From a virus, in the IMG/VR virus record IMGVR_UViG_3300001450_000220, positions 1 to 26,747 of that record: a stretch of DNA of 26,747 nt. One strand, given 5' to 3'. The translations under genes and the position numbers were made by a program. The notes under the pieces are model-generated. The model was not told the origin of the DNA. It worked only from the letters and a program-made list of their open reading frames with translations, and searched no databases. The number at the start of each line of letters is the position of its first letter. Position 1 is the first letter of the stretch. Positions 11,780-23,406 of the stretch are shown piece by piece.

Positions 11780-14700
11780 ATGCCATATTTAGACTACCAA
11801 AATGTTATAAAACAGGTAAGAGAACAAAACCCCAATTTAAGCAGAAGACTCCCTGATGATGATTTGTTGTATAAATATTTATATAAAAATGTAAATCCTC
11901 AACAAATGACAGGTAATCCAGACGCTGAATTTGAGCCTCCCGAAGATATATTTGAAGCAAGAAGAGAACAGCAAGAAAAGGTCCAAATACAGCAAAGACA
12001 AGACAGTAACCAAGGTAAAATTATAACTACCGATAATCCAAAAAAATGGGTTGCAGAATTTAATTTGGCAGGAGCGCTTGGAGATATATTTGACTCTAAT
12101 TATTTGCGTTACGCAGCCACTCAAGGAACTGCTGACTTAAGTAGAATGATTTTAACTGGAAAATCTGGCTATCAATTGCAAGATAAAGAAACGGGTAAAA
12201 TTATAACTCCAGAAGAATATGCTGAAGATTTAAATGTTTTTCAAGAAGTTGGAGCATGGATATTAGGTCAAGGTAATGTAGCTGATTTAGCAATTTGGGG
12301 TTTATCAGGTGGTTTGGGTAAAATTTTTACTACTACTGGAACAAAGTTAGTTGGTAAAAAGGTTGTTCCTAAAGTAGCCCTATCTGACGGTGCGCAAAAT
12401 TGGTTTCAAGATAAATGGGCTAAATCAAATGTTCAAAAATTTGCAACAAGTCAAAGGAAAAAAAATACTCCTTATTCTAATTATGTAGCAGACTGGGTTG
12501 AGGGCGCACCTGCAAGTATGGCATCTATAGGTGCTTTTAGTGCTGCCGCAGGAACTGTACATAGTGCTGTAAATCAAAGAAAAACTAATGATGATGGTAC
12601 ATCTGCATACAATCCTGAAACAGGAGCATTTGAAGGTACTGTAAGCCCAGGAAAAGTTATTTCAGAAGGTTTGTACGAAGGTATTAAAGGAACTGTATTA
12701 GGTGGAATAACTGCTGGAGTTGCTCCAGGACTTTCTAAAATGATTGGAGATGGAACAAGTAAGCTTCAAAAAAGCAACTCAAACTTTAATAAACGTCTTG
12801 CAGATTTAGCGGTAAGATTCCCAAAAACAACAGCAGGAATACCTGCAGCACCTATTGAAGGTTTTATTTTTGGTAATTTACCATATGTTATTGAAGGTGT
12901 ACCTAAAGATGAAAATGGAAACACAGATTTTGATACAGTGTGGCATGATTTTATGCATGGTACTGTTACTGTAGCTGGACTTAAAACTACAATGGGTTTA
13001 TTAGGGTCAGCTGGACAAGAGTATAAAACATACAAAAATTCTAAGAATTTGGATAAAGACATTAAAAATAATATATCCAATGAAACTATTAATAATGCAA
13101 AGAAAACTTTAAATGAAATATTACCTCCTAATGAAGTAGAAAAGTTTTTTAGAACACTTAGTAATGAAGAAAAAATAAAACTATCTAAAAAGTCATCTAT
13201 AGATTATGAGGTAGATAATTTTATTAATAATGCTGTTAGCGAAGCTCAAAAATTAAAAAAGCTAATGGAAGCTCCTGATTTTAAACTTGAAAGCTTAACT
13301 AGAGAGCAAAAAGAAAACGTACTTACTTCTTATAATACTTTACATGTAGTTAAACAAGTATTGTCAGAAAGACTTTTACCAGAAAATAACAAATCTTTTA
13401 CAGCGAACATAAAAGACTTGTACAACCAAAACAAAAGTAAAGACGCTCTTGCTTGGTCAAAACTTTCAGTAAAAGAAAAAAATAAATTTATAAAAGATAA
13501 AAAAAAGCAACTTGAATCTTTAGTAAAAAGAACAGACGAAACATTTCAATCATTTAATGATAATGTGTATAAACCTGTACATGCTAGTAAAGAAGGTCTT
13601 AAAACAAGAGCAAGAGAATTGGCTGATAAAACTAGAAATCTAGAAAAATCTAAACAAGATGAAGTTGTAAAAAGAATAAAAGCATCAAGTCTTGAAGAAA
13701 TAATAGGCTTTAATAACAAACAATTAACCAAAGCTGAAAAAATATTAAAGGAAGTTGTAGAAAGAAAAAGTCCTGAGCAGCAAATACAAAGCCTTAGAGA
13801 TGAGTTGATTGGGTTAACACTTAGCAAAAGAATGACATTACCAGAGTGGAAACAAGAAATAGAAAGTAGAGTTGTTAAGGGTAATGGGGAAGCAACTATT
13901 AAAAACCTTAGAAGTTTAAGGGATGCTACCAAAAAGTCTGGAGAACAAACAGCTGAAATTATTGATAAAGCTAACCAAGTAGACCTAGAGAAAATAAATA
14001 TTGATTCAAAAACGCCTAAAGGTGCAATAGCAAAAACTAAAGAAGGAAAGGCTAATAATCAGCTATTAAAAGAAGTTAATTTAAGTGACACAAATAAAAA
14101 AATGGCTGTTATCGGAATAGAGCAGTTTTTAAAACCAAGGAATTTAAATTCCCCAGGAAATGTTCAGAAATTATTTAAATTTTTTAAATACTTAGAAAAA
14201 AATCGTTACAATATAAATGAGGCTAATACAACTATATTTAGTAATTTTGTGATGTCTTCTAAATCTAAAGGCGGTTTAGATACTCAGAAAGCTCATGTAA
14301 TGAAGCCATACCAAGATATAGTAGCAGCTTTTTATGGCGGAAAAGCAGGAGGAGCAAAAGCTGTTGCATTTTCTGATATGTATATGGATGCTAAGGGTGT
14401 AGCTACAACACTTAGGGTACCCACAGTAGGTAAAGATAGAGCAACAATTGATACCCCAGAACAAGTTAAACTTTTTGATAAAATTGAAAGTTATGACAAA
14501 ACAGTGTCCAATACAAATCCGAGAGAAGCAAAAGCGGCTGTTGAATTGCTTTACTGGTTTGGTAGAAGAAGTACAGATGTATTGCAACACTTAAAAGTAT
14601 CAGATTTAAATATTTCAAACGGAACAATTAAATTAAGTGCAGCAAAAAAACAAGCAGGAGTAAGGGTATACTCAGAATATCCCTTAAAAGACGTATTGCC

Positions 14701-17700
14701 AAATCTTTTTAATAGACTTGTAAAGATTGCAGAAGGGAAAAACCCTAATAATATTCTTATTTCAAATAGAAGTGGAAAGATAGTTAACCACAATCCTATT
14801 ATAAAAGAAATAATGAAAGATTTAAAAATAAATTTATTTGGAGAGCAAAAAGAGTTTACAGTTAAAAGCTTTAGAAATACTATTGAAACTGATGCTTCTA
14901 GCACAAAGTTAGAATTATTTGCTACAGAACTTACTGGTCGTGGAAAAACTGTACAACAATCATATGTAGAAAAAGATTTTATTAAACAATTTAAAGAATT
15001 TAGAGATTTTAGGTTAGGTAAGAAAACTAAACAAAAAAGTCAGTTATCTGTATGGGAAGAAAAACTTAAAAAATTACAAGAATTAGGAAAACAAGAAAGA
15101 ATGACAGTAGAGCCTGGTAAACCAGTTAGGCCTGAAGCTACTCGTTCTGAAGTATCTAGATTTAAAGAAAAATTTGCTAATAAATATCCTGAATTAACAG
15201 TTGAACTAAATAAAAGTAAACTTAAAGGTGATAAAGGTGAACGTCTTCCAGAAAATGTACTAGAAACTGTTGTTGGTCTTGAAGTAAAAGTAAGACAAGG
15301 CGCTCCTATAGAGGCTGCTGTTCATGGCATGATTCACCCTATTATAAAAACATTAAGAGCTATATCTAAAACTAATAAAGGTAAAAAATTAGGCAAAGAA
15401 GCTTCAGGTCTTATGCGTGAGATTGAGCGTAGAATTGTAAAAACTAAAGAATTTAAAAAGTGGTATAAAAAATATATTACAGAAGATAAAATGAACCCTA
15501 AAGAAGCTAGAGATAGAGCTATTGAAGAAGCTACTGCTGTTAAAATGGGCGAAATTGTTTCAGGCAGGCTTGTAGATAAGACATTTTTTAACAGAATGAC
15601 TGATTGGGCTAAACGTGTATATACTAATATTAAAACATATTTTAAAGATGTAAGTGAACTTAAAGACAATGAATTATTTGACCTGTTTGGGCAAAAAATA
15701 TACAATAGAAACTTAAAAGAAATACCTTTAATGAGTTTTACTCAAGAATCAAAAGGTAAAATGCAGTTTATGACTGTTGACAAAAACATAAGTCCTAGTG
15801 ATTTAGTTGATATGGCTAAAAAACAGATAGATTTATATGCTAAACGATATAAATTAAATAAATCTAGCAAAGAAGCTTTGGTAGAACAACTATTGTTAGA
15901 GGCTGAAGTAGTAGGTAAAGATATAAATATGGTAGGCGGACCTGAAGCTGTAAAAATAATAAATGAACTTCAAAAAGTTGATTACCAAGCTATTGTAGGA
16001 AATAAAGATATTATTGAAAGATTAAAAATTAATTCTAAAATAAAACAATACAAGAAAAGTACAGATATAACATCTAAACAAGAAAAAGAATGGTTTGAGT
16101 TAAATGGGCAAACAGACGTTGTAAATGCTTCTATAGGATTGTTAAGAGATTGGAAAGATATTGTATATCAAGCTCAAGACCTTAAAGGTGCTAGACCTAA
16201 AATTAATAACGATATAGCAGAAACTTTAAACGCTAAAGATGTTAGTGGCAGAATGACCTCAACTACATTTAATAAATTAAAATTATCTGCACAATCAGGA
16301 CTTGTTGGATTTAACAGAGTAGCAAAATATTTAAAATTAGATAAACTTCATAAATGGGTTTCAACTCATTTAACTGCTGAACAAAGTCATATTGGAAGAC
16401 TGAATGGTTTTATTGCAAGAGCAGAAGGTAGAGGTTACCCTATGTTTAGTAAGGCTAGAAAACAAATATCTAAAAGCTGGAAAGCTGTTGAAGAAGTATT
16501 TGGTTTATTAGAGTCAAGTGATAAAAATGGTGCATTTAAAAGATTAAATGACCCTACAGTAGACAAAGCTGACAAAGCAAAAGCTTTGAAGTTTATTAAA
16601 AAAGCTTTTATAGTTAAGACTAAGAAAAACAAAAAAACAGGACAAACAGAGTATTTTAATGAAGGTATTAATTGGGACCCAGTAACAAAAAAAGGAACTC
16701 TTCAAGGTGAATTAATGTATTTTTTTAAAGAAGGAGTTATGAAGCATTATGTAAGAGAATTTTCTACTCTTATTGATATGCAATTTCCTAAAATTGGAGC
16801 AAGAGAAGCGTTTATAAAAGAAAATGGTATTAATTTTTTAAATAAAACTAAAAAAGGATTTTATATACCTATAAGATTTTCAGATGCGTTTGGTGAATTT
16901 TATAGCCCGCAAAGTGTGCAAAGTGCTAAAAAAATACAAAAAGTTGGTAGAGAATATGCTATAGATATGGCAAAAATAAAATACGGAGATAAATATACAA
17001 AAGCTACTACTGCAGAAAAAACTAAATTAGTAAATAAATTTTTAGAAATGGGTATAGATAGAGCTAGAATTGAGATGTATACCGCAGTTGATTTCGGGTC
17101 TGGTAAAATGACTGTTAAGAATTTAATAACTAGAAACAAATTTCAATTTGAACAAACTATTAAAGGTGAAAAAGGTGAAAAAATAAAAGTTTTTGATAAC
17201 AATTTTGAAAGTTTAATGATGCCTTACTCAACAGGAATGGCTAAGCTTCTTGCAAATATGGAATATGCGCCATGGGCTGTAGGTTTAAAAGGGTATTCAG
17301 GGACTGGTGATGTTGCAGCTATGCTTGGGCAAGCATCTAAAACTTTAGGTGTAAAAGGAAAATTTGGGCAAAAAATACAAAGAATAATCAAAGACGGTAT
17401 GATGGAAAGAACAGGGTCATCTACAACTCAAGATGTTTTACCTACAATTACTGGTATTACAAGAGAATATACAGCTACTTTAATGAGATTACAGCTTGGT
17501 GGTTTAATTCCTTTAACAGGTACTTGGAATATAATGGAGCAAAGCAAACAGATGGTAATGGCATATAAGATAATGGATGTTGCTAAAAGCTTTGTTAAAT
17601 CATTTAATTTAGCAGAAAGAATTGCTACTGAAGATGCAGGTGCTGTTTCTAGTATAGGTTTATTAGGCTATAAACCAGGTCAATTTAATTTACTTGGTAA

Positions 17701-19174
17701 AAAAGTAGAAAAAGCTACAGGTGTAAGTCAAAGATTAAGAAATGCTTCAGAGTGGCTATTTAAAAGAGGTGGTATGCCATTTACAGAATCTTTTGCTCGT
17801 ACTTGGGCTAGATTAGCTAGTGGTATGGAAATGCAAAGATTAACAGAACATTTAAATATATTACCAGAAACATCAAAAAGGCATAAATATGCTGTTGACA
17901 GGCTTAAAAGTTTTTATGAATTGTCTAATGGCGATATTGCTGTGTTAAAAAAATATGGATTAGACCCAAACCCATCAATTTTAAAAGGTAATGATGTTCC
18001 TATTGTTAAAAGAGTAATTAAAAATTCATTTAGAAAAGCAGAACTAGTAGGTAATATAAAAACTGCAGGAACTACTGTAGAATCAATGAGCGCTGGATGG
18101 ACTAATTTTAAATTAGTAAAACCTTTACTTATGTATAAAAAAATAGCTATGAGTACATCCATGAATAATATGGAGCTAATGAAATACAATCTAAAACATA
18201 AGCATTTTTTAAGAACAGGTTTATTTTTAGGTGGAACATATTTAAAAGGTGTGGCAAGAATAGCTGTGATGAAAGCTTTATTTAATCAATCTACTGCTAA
18301 TGTAGAGAATACAGATTGGTGGACATCATTTTGGGCCACTATGTATAATGGAGAATTTTTAGGTATTGGTTCAGAATTTTTAAGCCCATACAAAGAGTCA
18401 TGGTTTAGTATGCAAGACAATTTAGTAAATGAAGCTGCAATGACCCAAAACTATAAAAGAACTTTATCTTTATTGCAAGTGTTAACGCAATCTGGAGCTA
18501 ATAAAATAAATTCTGATTTTGCTAATACATTTTTTGGTGAACAGAAAATGTCTGTTGAAGATGCTGGTGTTGAATGGTTACGTTCCACTGTATCTAGTTA
18601 TAATCAATACTATAAAATTAAAAATCAATTAATGAATCCGTATAATGCTAACTCTAAACAAATTCAAGTTTGGAATAGAAATTACAACAAAAAACATTCT
18701 TTTAAAGGTCGTGAAGATTATGAAGCAACTGAGTCAAGTATGTATTTTAGAAAACTTAGAACTGTGTTTAACACAGGAACAAAACAAGAGTTTCTTGAAG
18801 AGCTTACACTAGCATATTTAGGAAAAGTTAGTGACGGGTTAGGTAAAGGATTAAGTGAGCAAGCCGCTTTAAAAGAAGCAGCTGCCATAATTAAAACAAA
18901 ATTAAAAGATTTAAACCCTATACCTTATTCTGTAGACCCTAATAATGATTATAAAATAACTCCATTTGAATCATTTTTTCTGACATTAAGTGATGAGCAT
19001 AAAAAAATAACTGCTAAAACTTACCTTGAATATTATAAAAAAATAAAAGATTATGAAAAATCTTGGCAATATTTTAAAAGAAAAAGAGGCATAGGTGACT
19101 TAATGAAAAATTTTGATTTTAAAATGGACGAAAAAGTTTTACAGTCTTATCTTAAGAAAATTAAATTAAAATAA
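11780..19174 (+). CDS. giant multidomain virion (polyvalent-type) protein with embedded tyrosine recombinase, 2464 aa
   Basis: The ATG has an AGGA site 7 bases upstream and one frame stays open for 7.4 kb. Layout: residues 1-95, charged helical start; about 95-420, Gly/Ala-rich hydrophobic segments (e.g. LYEGIKGTVLGGITAGVAPG) like membrane-active core proteins; about 430-770, charged coiled-coil-rich region. A tyrosine recombinase follows (775-1070), then a degenerate zinc-peptidase-like region (1130-1320). The last 900 residues are large helical domains with hydrophobic patches near 1900-1935 and 2150-2175. Giant proteins of this build are ejected with the genome in podoviruses (T7 gp16-type) and are called polyvalent proteins when they carry enzymes. 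The virion role is inferred from size, place and build. The gene ends 9 bases inside the opposing gene. Confidence 0.7.
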   Translation: MPYLDYQNVIKQVREQNPNLSRRLPDDDLLYKYLYKNVNPQQMTGNPDAEFEPPEDIFEARREQQEKVQIQQRQDSNQGKIITTDNPKKWVAEFNLAGALGDIFDSNYLRYAATQGTADLSRMILTGKSGYQLQDKETGKIITPEEYAEDLNVFQEVGAWILGQGNVADLAIWGLSGGLGKIFTTTGTKLVGKKVVPKVALSDGAQNWFQDKWAKSNVQKFATSQRKKNTPYSNYVADWVEGAPASMASIGAFSAAAGTVHSAVNQRKTNDDGTSAYNPETGAFEGTVSPGKVISEGLYEGIKGTVLGGITAGVAPGLSKMIGDGTSKLQKSNSNFNKRLADLAVRFPKTTAGIPAAPIEGFIFGNLPYVIEGVPKDENGNTDFDTVWHDFMHGTVTVAGLKTTMGLLGSAGQEYKTYKNSKNLDKDIKNNISNETINNAKKTLNEILPPNEVEKFFRTLSNEEKIKLSKKSSIDYEVDNFINNAVSEAQKLKKLMEAPDFKLESLTREQKENVLTSYNTLHVVKQVLSERLLPENNKSFTANIKDLYNQNKSKDALAWSKLSVKEKNKFIKDKKKQLESLVKRTDETFQSFNDNVYKPVHASKEGLKTRARELADKTRNLEKSKQDEVVKRIKASSLEEIIGFNNKQLTKAEKILKEVVERKSPEQQIQSLRDELIGLTLSKRMTLPEWKQEIESRVVKGNGEATIKNLRSLRDATKKSGEQTAEIIDKANQVDLEKINIDSKTPKGAIAKTKEGKANNQLLKEVNLSDTNKKMAVIGIEQFLKPRNLNSPGNVQKLFKFFKYLEKNRYNINEANTTIFSNFVMSSKSKGGLDTQKAHVMKPYQDIVAAFYGGKAGGAKAVAFSDMYMDAKGVATTLRVPTVGKDRATIDTPEQVKLFDKIESYDKTVSNTNPREAKAAVELLYWFGRRSTDVLQHLKVSDLNISNGTIKLSAAKKQAGVRVYSEYPLKDVLPNLFNRLVKIAEGKNPNNILISNRSGKIVNHNPIIKEIMKDLKINLFGEQKEFTVKSFRNTIETDASSTKLELFATELTGRGKTVQQSYVEKDFIKQFKEFRDFRLGKKTKQKSQLSVWEEKLKKLQELGKQERMTVEPGKPVRPEATRSEVSRFKEKFANKYPELTVELNKSKLKGDKGERLPENVLETVVGLEVKVRQGAPIEAAVHGMIHPIIKTLRAISKTNKGKKLGKEASGLMREIERRIVKTKEFKKWYKKYITEDKMNPKEARDRAIEEATAVKMGEIVSGRLVDKTFFNRMTDWAKRVYTNIKTYFKDVSELKDNELFDLFGQKIYNRNLKEIPLMSFTQESKGKMQFMTVDKNISPSDLVDMAKKQIDLYAKRYKLNKSSKEALVEQLLLEAEVVGKDINMVGGPEAVKIINELQKVDYQAIVGNKDIIERLKINSKIKQYKKSTDITSKQEKEWFELNGQTDVVNASIGLLRDWKDIVYQAQDLKGARPKINNDIAETLNAKDVSGRMTSTTFNKLKLSAQSGLVGFNRVAKYLKLDKLHKWVSTHLTAEQSHIGRLNGFIARAEGRGYPMFSKARKQISKSWKAVEEVFGLLESSDKNGAFKRLNDPTVDKADKAKALKFIKKAFIVKTKKNKKTGQTEYFNEGINWDPVTKKGTLQGELMYFFKEGVMKHYVREFSTLIDMQFPKIGAREAFIKENGINFLNKTKKGFYIPIRFSDAFGEFYSPQSVQSAKKIQKVGREYAIDMAKIKYGDKYTKATTAEKTKLVNKFLEMGIDRARIEMYTAVDFGSGKMTVKNLITRNKFQFEQTIKGEKGEKIKVFDNNFESLMMPYSTGMAKLLANMEYAPWAVGLKGYSGTGDVAAMLGQASKTLGVKGKFGQKIQRIIKDGMMERTGSSTTQDVLPTITGITREYTATLMRLQLGGLIPLTGTWNIMEQSKQMVMAYKIMDVAKSFVKSFNLAERIATEDAGAVSSIGLLGYKPGQFNLLGKKVEKATGVSQRLRNASEWLFKRGGMPFTESFARTWARLASGMEMQRLTEHLNILPETSKRHKYAVDRLKSFYELSNGDIAVLKKYGLDPNPSILKGNDVPIVKRVIKNSFRKAELVGNIKTAGTTVESMSAGWTNFKLVKPLLMYKKIAMSTSMNNMELMKYNLKHKHFLRTGLFLGGTYLKGVARIAVMKALFNQSTANVENTDWWTSFWATMYNGEFLGIGSEFLSPYKESWFSMQDNLVNEAAMTQNYKRTLSLLQVLTQSGANKINSDFANTFFGEQKMSVEDAGVEWLRSTVSSYNQYYKIKNQLMNPYNANSKQIQVWNRNYNKKHSFKGREDYEATESSMYFRKLRTVFNTGTKQEFLEELTLAYLGKVSDGLGKGLSEQAALKEAAAIIKTKLKDLNPIPYSVDPNNDYKITPFESFFLTLSDEHKKITAKTYLEYYKKIKDYEKSWQYFKRKRGIGDLMKNFDFKMDEKVLQSYLKKIKLK
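14102..14989 (+). other. embedded tyrosine recombinase domain (residues ~775-1070 of the giant protein)
   Basis: The segment starts with a helical stretch (MAVIGIEQFLKPRNL to about residue 875) that reads as a SAM-like core-binding domain. The catalytic domain follows. ArgI is R930 in FGRRSTDVLQHLKVSDL, which aligns with the usual G-x-R-x-S-E-L-x-x-L-x-W-x-D. A beta-hairpin lysine is K956 or K957 in SAAKKQAGVRV. K1029-S-F-R1032 fills the H/K-x-x-R box. ELTGRGKTVQQSYVEK ends with the nucleophile Y1062, and R1054 stands where H or W is usual. Spacing between boxes is normal for XerCD-type integrases. Five of six catalytic positions are acceptable, so activity is possible. Known chemistry for the family is strand exchange through a 3'-phosphotyrosine. 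Confidence 0.7.
15170..15740 (+). other. degenerate zinc-metallopeptidase-like region (residues ~1131-1320)
   Basis: Residues H1182-G-M-I-H1186 lie in a helix after a hydrophobic strand (APIEAAVHGMIHPIIKTL), where a zincin would have HExxH. About 63 residues later comes IEEATAVKMGEIV (E1249/E1250), a reasonable place for the third zinc ligand. A basic helical tail follows (MTDWAKRVYTNIKTYF). I recall this order from HExxH-bearing segments in other giant phage proteins. The catalytic Glu is Gly here, so peptidase activity is unlikely, though zinc binding might remain. This is a by-eye call from weak similarity. Confidence 0.4.
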
Positions 19175-22885: not shown

Positions 22886-22987
22886 TTAGTTTAATAAATT
22901 AATTATAAATAATATTATTACTGCCCAAATTGCAAAACTTACAACTGTTATTCCGCCCCAAGTAAAAACATTAATCCATTTTATCAT
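22886..22987 (-). CDS. 33-residue single-pass membrane microprotein
   Basis: A strong AGGAGGTC site precedes the ATG by about 5 bases and lies within the end of the zinc-ribbon gene (17-base overlap). After MIKWINVFTWGG almost the whole peptide is a membrane helix (VVSFAIWAVIILFIINLL). Membrane peptides of this size can be holin modulators, superinfection-exclusion factors or membrane anchors. Nothing here chooses between these. The ribosome site and overlap support it being real. Confidence 0.6.
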   Translation of the reverse strand: MIKWINVFTWGGITVVSFAIWAVIILFIINLLN

Positions 22988-23138
22988 CTTGACCTCCTAA
23001 TGGTAAATAACACTCGTAATATGAATCACAATCTGGACAACTGAAATTACTTACTATTCCTTCGCCTTCCTTTCCATAATCCTCATAATCATGGTCTCCT
23101 CCCCAAATCAATTCTGAACTACAATGCCAACACTGCAT
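22971..23138 (-). CDS. zinc-ribbon protein, 55 aa
   Basis: It begins MQCWHCSSELIWGGDHD and has a second knuckle SCPDCDSYYEC. The pairs C3/C6 and C34/C37 would hold one zinc, as in rubredoxin-like ribbons. I recall similar small C-W-H-C...W-G-G-D-H proteins in many phages; their function is not known to me. AAGGAG lies 6 bases before the ATG. That site can pair with the 3' strand of the upstream RNA element, so this gene is the likely target of that element. Confidence 0.75.
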   Translation of the reverse strand: MQCWHCSSELIWGGDHDYEDYGKEGEGIVSNFSCPDCDSYYECYLPLGGQDDKMD

Positions 23139-23158
23139 AATTTTCTCCTTTTAAAAAA

Positions 23159-23244
23159 GGGAGACTTGAAAGGCGGAAAAGAACTGCGGTAGAGAGGACC
23201 GCATTAAAACCCCCCATGTATTCTCACGATATACAAAGTCTCCC
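23159..23244 (-). ncRNA. structured RNA element upstream of the zinc-ribbon gene (riboswitch-like)
   Basis: On the - strand a 9-bp closing stem, GGGAGACTT (23244-23236) with AAGTCTCCC (23167-23159), encloses two hairpins. One is TGTAT/ATACA with a 9-base loop (23235-23217), directly abutting the closing stem. The other is TGCGGT/ACCGCA with a 7-base loop (23203-23185). A G6 run and a pyrimidine-rich strand lie unpaired in the junction. Immediately after the closing stem come six T and then AAAAGGAG, the ribosome site of the zinc-ribbon gene. CTCC in the stem plus the T run is complementary to that site (23145-23163), so opening the closing stem could hide it. The pairings are seen in the sequence; the regulation is inferred. 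No known riboswitch class is recognised. Confidence 0.5.
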
Positions 23245-23250
23245 ATATTA

Positions 23251-23406
23251 TTATCTTTTTATATGTCTATAAACTGTTGCTTGTGATACACCAACAATTT
23301 TACTTATTCTTCTGCCTTTCATACCAAAACCATATAAGGTGTTGATAATCAGCTCTCTAGGCCATCCTACTTTTCTGTATCTTCTTTTAGAATGGGATGT
23401 CTGCAT
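23251..23406 (-). CDS. small helix-turn-helix DNA-binding protein, 51 aa
   Basis: A strong GGAAGGAGGTG site precedes the ATG, which lies inside the last codons of the SSB-like gene (20-base overlap). The product is a single basic HTH: a first helix in GWPRELIINTLYGFGMK, then RRISKIVGVSQATVYRHIKR, matching the resolvase/Hin-type pattern G-x-S-x-x-x-I-A-x-x-x-G-V-S-x-x-T-V-Y-R. With no other domain, it is probably a small regulator or a recombination-complex accessory. It ends 6 bases before the RNA element. Its target is unknown. Confidence 0.7.
   Translation of the reverse strand: MQTSHSKRRYRKVGWPRELIINTLYGFGMKGRRISKIVGVSQATVYRHIKR

Follow-up and report, generated by a model that had tools for sequence, protein, structure and literature searches.

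The manA and wcaG motifs, found in marine metagenomes and cyanophages, are structured RNAs of marine phage operons that lie in the 5′ UTRs of metabolic genes and are candidate riboswitches (PMC2864571). The put RNA of phage HK022 consists of two tandem stem-loops close to the early promoters (PMC9378689). At the border between two cistrons, predicted structure directly downstream of the stop codon is reported to lower the translational coupling between them, and the folds described in this setting are simple and inhibitory (PMC12548453, a review).

The RNA analysed here separates two small genes in an operon of replication genes from an uncultivated phage. It is part of the sense transcript and lies within a stretch of 26,747 nucleotides that is referred to below as the window. 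It resembles manA and wcaG in general kind, and their Rfam models give no match to the window. Like put, it is a phage RNA in the range of about 70–90 nt and, on the function we infer for it, would act in cis within an early operon, but it forms a single three-way junction where put has two stem-loops. It shares with the structures at cistron borders a fold right behind the stop and perhaps the ability to mask the ribosome site that follows, and differs from them in being a conserved junction with specific loops. It is a new RNA family, absent from Rfam, of a known kind, namely the cis-regulatory structured RNAs of phages.

To our knowledge, structured RNAs from uncultivated phages are little catalogued, and elements that couple or insulate translation behind the stops of tight operons are expected but have rarely been seen as conserved families. 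The RNA described here combines strong covariation and absence from Rfam with a position directly behind a stop codon in a tightly packed operon, and it allows a direct reporter test of whether phages uncouple neighbouring genes by conserved RNA folds.

In the window, 112 bases separate the stop codon of the HTH gene from the zinc-ribbon gene, and most of them fold into a three-way junction of about 90 nt (Table 1). This is made up of a 9-bp closing stem (P1), a hairpin with a GNRA loop (P2) and a stem with a U-rich internal loop (P3/P4). The RNA is assigned to the minus strand because the zinc-ribbon gene is on that strand. The minimum free energy structure of the 100-nt stretch is exactly the three-way junction (−32.3 kcal/mol, z = −3.2), and one of 200 dinucleotide shuffles matches its stability. 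The fold of the plus strand is less specific (z = −1.6). A preliminary description of the locus had proposed a 9-bp stem closing a three-way junction with two hairpins, and was right in both coordinates and fold, apart from a G.G mismatch at the centre of P3. The mismatch is seen in this phage only; in relatives P3 reads GGCGG/CCGCC, GGTGG/CTACC or GGTGG/CCACC. The 3′ strand of P1 is followed by six T (23158-23153), the ribosome-binding site of the zinc-ribbon ORF and its ATG (23138-23136).

Table 1. Features of the intercistronic RNA and its surroundings. Positions are those of the window unless a contig is named.
Feature	Position	Strand	Remarks
Upstream gene, 51-aa stand-alone HTH protein	23251..23403	-	nearest HTH_7/HTH_23, sub-threshold in this member
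Whole conserved RNA element	23156..23247	-	covariance-model match 1-93 of 93, 98.9 bits; no Rfam match
P1 5′ strand GGGAGACTT	23236..23244	-	SD-like purine strand; begins 6 nt past HTH-gene stop; from fold and alignment
P2 hairpin	23217..23235	-	4-5 bp and an internal loop, capped by UC-GUGA-GA; GNRA tetraloop, either GUGA or GCGA among close relatives
P3/P4 stem	23172..23214	-	enclosed by P1; from MFE fold
P3 5′ strand GGGGG	23210..23214	-	from alignment
P4 hairpin TGCGGT-CCTCTCT-ACCGCA	23185..23203	-	from fold and alignment
U-rich 3′ side of P3/P4 internal loop, GUUCUUUU	23177..23184	-	conserved; faces UUUUAA at 23204-23209; from alignment
P3 3′ strand CCGCC	23172..23176	-	from alignment
P1 3′ strand AAGTCTCCC	23159..23167	-	anti-SD-like; 9 bp with GGGAGACTT; from fold and alignment
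Ribosome-binding site of zinc-ribbon ORF, AAAAGGAG	23145..23152	-	alternative partner for P1 3′ strand
Downstream gene, 55-aa zinc-ribbon-like protein	22971..23138	-	follows element in 14 of 25 tabulated members
Second structured RNA	L119:2814-2880, L121:2475-2570, L122:4240-4325, L123:3320-3390, L126:3700-3770

The same fold was found in 25 further IMG/VR contigs, which gives 26 contigs and 18 distinct sequences, with one copy per phage. A scan with the zinc-ribbon protein returned 80 loci, and the element is present only at the eleven closest of these (L002-L012) and at the more divergent L026. L090 and L107 were contributed by a scan with the neighbouring 207-aa protein, and L119 and L121-L126 by a scan with an alignment of the HTH protein (L122 shares a contig with L026). 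In L119 and L121-L126 the fold lies right after the HTH stop despite a strongly diverged sequence. A covariance model (R1), built from 17 members before the L127 type was included, identified a more diverged copy behind another gene in L127 and L130, and the same copy is present in L128, L129 and L131. The L127-type copies score 44 bits with a model that includes the diverged copy (R2), L127 itself being in the training set. A further candidate, L100, was rejected, as the letters of P2 alone matched. The annotated phages in the collection, searched by DNA and by HTH protein, contain no detectable relative. No match to the element was obtained in a sample of 299 Bacillota genomes, a search run without a positive control, and the HTH homologs in bacterial genomes are weak matches.

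No family of Rfam 15 reaches threshold with the window or with thirteen relatives, at gathering or relaxed settings, in agreement with the earlier impression that the RNA belongs to no known class. The best sub-threshold match to the window is the freshwater-2 RNA (RF02980), which scores 17.9 bits where its gathering score is 49.9. The likeness consists of a small GC hairpin followed by UUUUUUAAAGGAGAAAA, the letters in common being mostly ribosome site, and freshwater-2 has no counterpart to P1 or to the three-way junction.

The element is a real, evolutionarily conserved structured RNA, and its structure is well supported by the pattern of substitution. In an alignment of the 18 distinct sequences fitted to the model, changes on both sides are seen at 19 of 27 pairs and 92.9% of cells pair, compared with 42–57% when the pairing is slid by 1–3 nt. 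A MAFFT alignment, which is not fitted to the fold, gives both-sided changes at 14 of 27 pairs, with 90.2% of cells pairing. There are 27 branch events in which both partners change and the pair is kept. In a tree-aware null, the inferred substitutions of each branch were replayed at columns drawn at random from within their class, and for each of the three measures none of 1000 runs reaches the observed value. Compensatory changes, which the preliminary description had named as the check on its stems, are present in every one of them. Cells with G-U outnumber those with A-C by 33 to 2, and the selected molecule is therefore the minus-strand RNA and not a DNA palindrome. An inverted repeat acting at the DNA level as a site for the HTH protein was ruled out on this ground, and by the covariation of the arms.

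P1 has a constant GGNAG/CUNCC, P2 a constant GYGA tetraloop, and P3/P4 a constant UU(UU) facing UYCUUU. The 3′ strand of P1 is preceded by UUCA (UUCG in L004), with the exception of the most diverged copy, that of L127. The loop of P4 shows no conservation between clades.

The genes on either side of the element behave differently. The gap from the upstream stop codon to the start of the element is 5–7 nt in all 25 tabulated members, and a fixed short distance of this kind is expected of a coupling or insulating element. In 21 of the 25 the preceding gene is the HTH gene (the homolog in L119 clears the HTH_7 cut-off); the other four, of the L127 type, have in its place an unrelated gene for a 99-aa protein. 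Downstream, the distance to the next start codon ranges from 20 to 116 nt, and the genes that begin there, at least seven and unrelated to one another, do not show the functional coherence expected of genes behind a translational riboswitch. The link to the zinc-ribbon gene suggested at the outset was checked by the conservation of the gap, and it fails in both directions: most relatives of the gene lack the element, and L107, L119, L121 and L123-L131 keep the element without the gene. Elsewhere, the plus strand of the window (11780-19174) codes for a protein of 2464 aa, perhaps a phage polyvalent protein, one stretch of which (..ELLYWFGRRSTDVLQHLKVSDL..) looks by eye like a tyrosine recombinase.

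We hypothesise, tentatively and with less than even confidence, that the new family is one of cis-acting intercistronic RNAs, in which the closing stem is opposed to the ribosome that terminates on the upstream gene and translation is coupled or insulated. The element would act in cis at the border of two cistrons, where the terminating ribosome would cover or open the 5′ strand of P1. With P1 closed, scanning ribosomes would be barred, and the anti-SD-like 3′ strand (UCUCCC) would be occupied, leaving the next ribosome site free; with P1 open, the 3′ strand could fold over that site. The stability of P1 may be set by the arms P2 and P3/P4, whose loops are conserved, through a tertiary contact or through binding of a protein or ligand. 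The net effect would be that translation of the rear half of the operon is coupled to, or insulated from, the front half.

This proposal is favoured by the constancy of the spacing from the stop across two unrelated upstream genes, while the distance to the next start varies. In addition, where an HTH-gene relative has no junction behind it, a different strong hairpin stands 6–11 nt past the stop; 11 of the 12 checked combine a purine 5′ strand with a pyrimidine 3′ strand, as in TGGGAGGGCGGAG...CTCTGCTCTCCCA. The lower coupling reported for cistron pairs with structure just behind the stop (PMC12548453) also speaks for it. Against it, the 5–7 nt spacing could be mere genome compaction, conservation of the loops points to something beyond a mechanical stem, and the copies in L127-L131 lie behind another gene.

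Folding predictions for 10 tested members with a ribosome site within 24 nt also bear on the cistron-boundary proposal. Blocking the 5′ strand of P1 is predicted to let the next gene's GGAG pair with the 3′ strand, at a probability of 0.65–0.98, in eight of the ten (the exceptions being L002, 0.31, and L107, 0.09), and when P1 is intact the GGAG is predicted to be partly to fully free. Opening of P1 is thus predicted to mask the site in most members that have one nearby. For the window, P1 is the preferred state by 8.6 kcal/mol. Evidence against the proposal comes from the second clade (L119, L122, L123 and L126), in which the ribosome site is 67–91 nt from P1 with the second structured RNA of Table 1 in between, and masking is mixed (0.16–0.90). 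Furthermore, because P1 reads GGGAG/CUCCC, complementarity between CUCC and GGAG is almost automatic. The competition between the 3′ strand of P1 and the ribosome site, as put forward in the preliminary description, is thermodynamically possible. A pairing of the internal-loop UUCUUUU with the ribosome site AAAAGGA, noticed by eye only, was discarded as being no better than that of any pyrimidine stretch with an SD sequence.

The alternative pairing to the ribosome site would also suit a translational switch that senses a ligand or protein, in which the junction is an aptamer and binding locks P1 and frees the next site. The conserved single strands (the GYGA loop, the UUUU/UYCUUU internal loop, and UUCA before the 3′ strand of P1) point in the same direction. 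We nevertheless regard such a switch as rather unlikely, since the downstream genes, at least seven, have no common function, no Rfam ligand class matches, and the ribosome site is far from P1 in one clade. It is more doubtful still that the element is a new phage RNA switch in which the junction and U-rich internal loop sense a ligand or a phage or host protein and are read by ribosomes terminating 5–7 nt upstream; if true, the riboswitch would be tied to the gene in front of it and not to the one behind, and it may be spread more widely than this phage group (see the look-alikes L188/L199 and L197 below). A stand-alone or processed small RNA, with trans targets among host or phage RNAs or a role as protein decoy, would account for the single copy per phage, the compact and stable fold, and the fact that neither neighbouring gene is constant. 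To this we also attach a low probability, of the same order as that of the aptamer, as the element is always in sense with the operon and 5–7 nt behind a stop, has no upstream promoter clearly above shuffle background and no conserved terminator, and has a P4 loop that is not conserved between clades.

The single copy per genome, the position inside an operon and the indifference to flanking genes also recall a mid-operon element acting on RNA polymerase by processive antitermination, like HK022 put or EAR. This is improbable, in that put has two tandem stem-loops by the early promoters (PMC9378689), and the element forms one three-way junction and lies well within the operon. The region might instead be a small protein gene: in 16 of the 18 distinct sequences an AUG stands 2 or 4 nt ahead of the GGG of P1, and the frame that it opens, of 31–53 codons, runs across the element in all 16. 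In the window this frame spans 23246-23151 (-). However, relatives differ in the frame (MGD... or MWE...) and in length by amounts that are not multiples of three, and base-pair covariation is strong; because the peptides are not conserved between frames, a protein gene is very unlikely. Ribosomes that reinitiate at the upstream stop may still translate through the element, and this would fit one at a cistron boundary. An intrinsic terminator or attenuator, which had been suggested from the six T after P1, is hardly credible: the T run is confined to the window and its nearest relatives and is replaced in most others (e.g. CCCACAATATT in L005 and CCCAAAATTTAGG in L119), and a U run that is not conserved argues against termination. 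A recoding signal that stimulates readthrough or frameshifting was also considered and rejected, as spacings of 5, 6 or 7 nt place the element in all three frames, with no constant frame past the stop.

Several other structured regions were seen in related contigs. In the clade of L119 and L121-L126, a second conserved structured RNA (Table 1) lies between the element and the next gene. It comprises, in this order, a GGTARC..RTGTTACC hairpin, CTCGTCGAAAAGAGAAC, a GC hairpin that varies, and GACTC; its fold z is −2 to −5.3, and it has no Rfam match at the gathering threshold. GC-rich inverted repeats, unrelated in sequence, also stand in front of other zinc-ribbon genes of the family, in L039 (CTTGGGGGGTG...CATCCCCCAAG, within the roughly 70 nt ahead of 4001) and at L026:3904-3990. 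The alternative hairpins behind the HTH stop, of the TGGGAGGGCGGAG...CTCTGCTCTCCCA type, are found at L127:4148-4215, L132:2854-2915, L136:2851-2910 and in L139-L142, and often have a second copy of CTCCC behind them that could swap pairing.

A pattern scan of the whole viral collection returned look-alike junctions in other viral contigs, at L188:5361-5450(-), L199:3072-3155(+) and L197:534-619(+). They score 26–31 bits, may be due to chance, and were kept out of the evidence. All three have P1 and P2 in the same register as the element, with a bulged A before UCC-GYGA-GGA. Between L188 and L199 a C-G pair in P2 is swapped for G-C, and the look-alike in L197 lies 3 nt past the end of a predicted tRNA.
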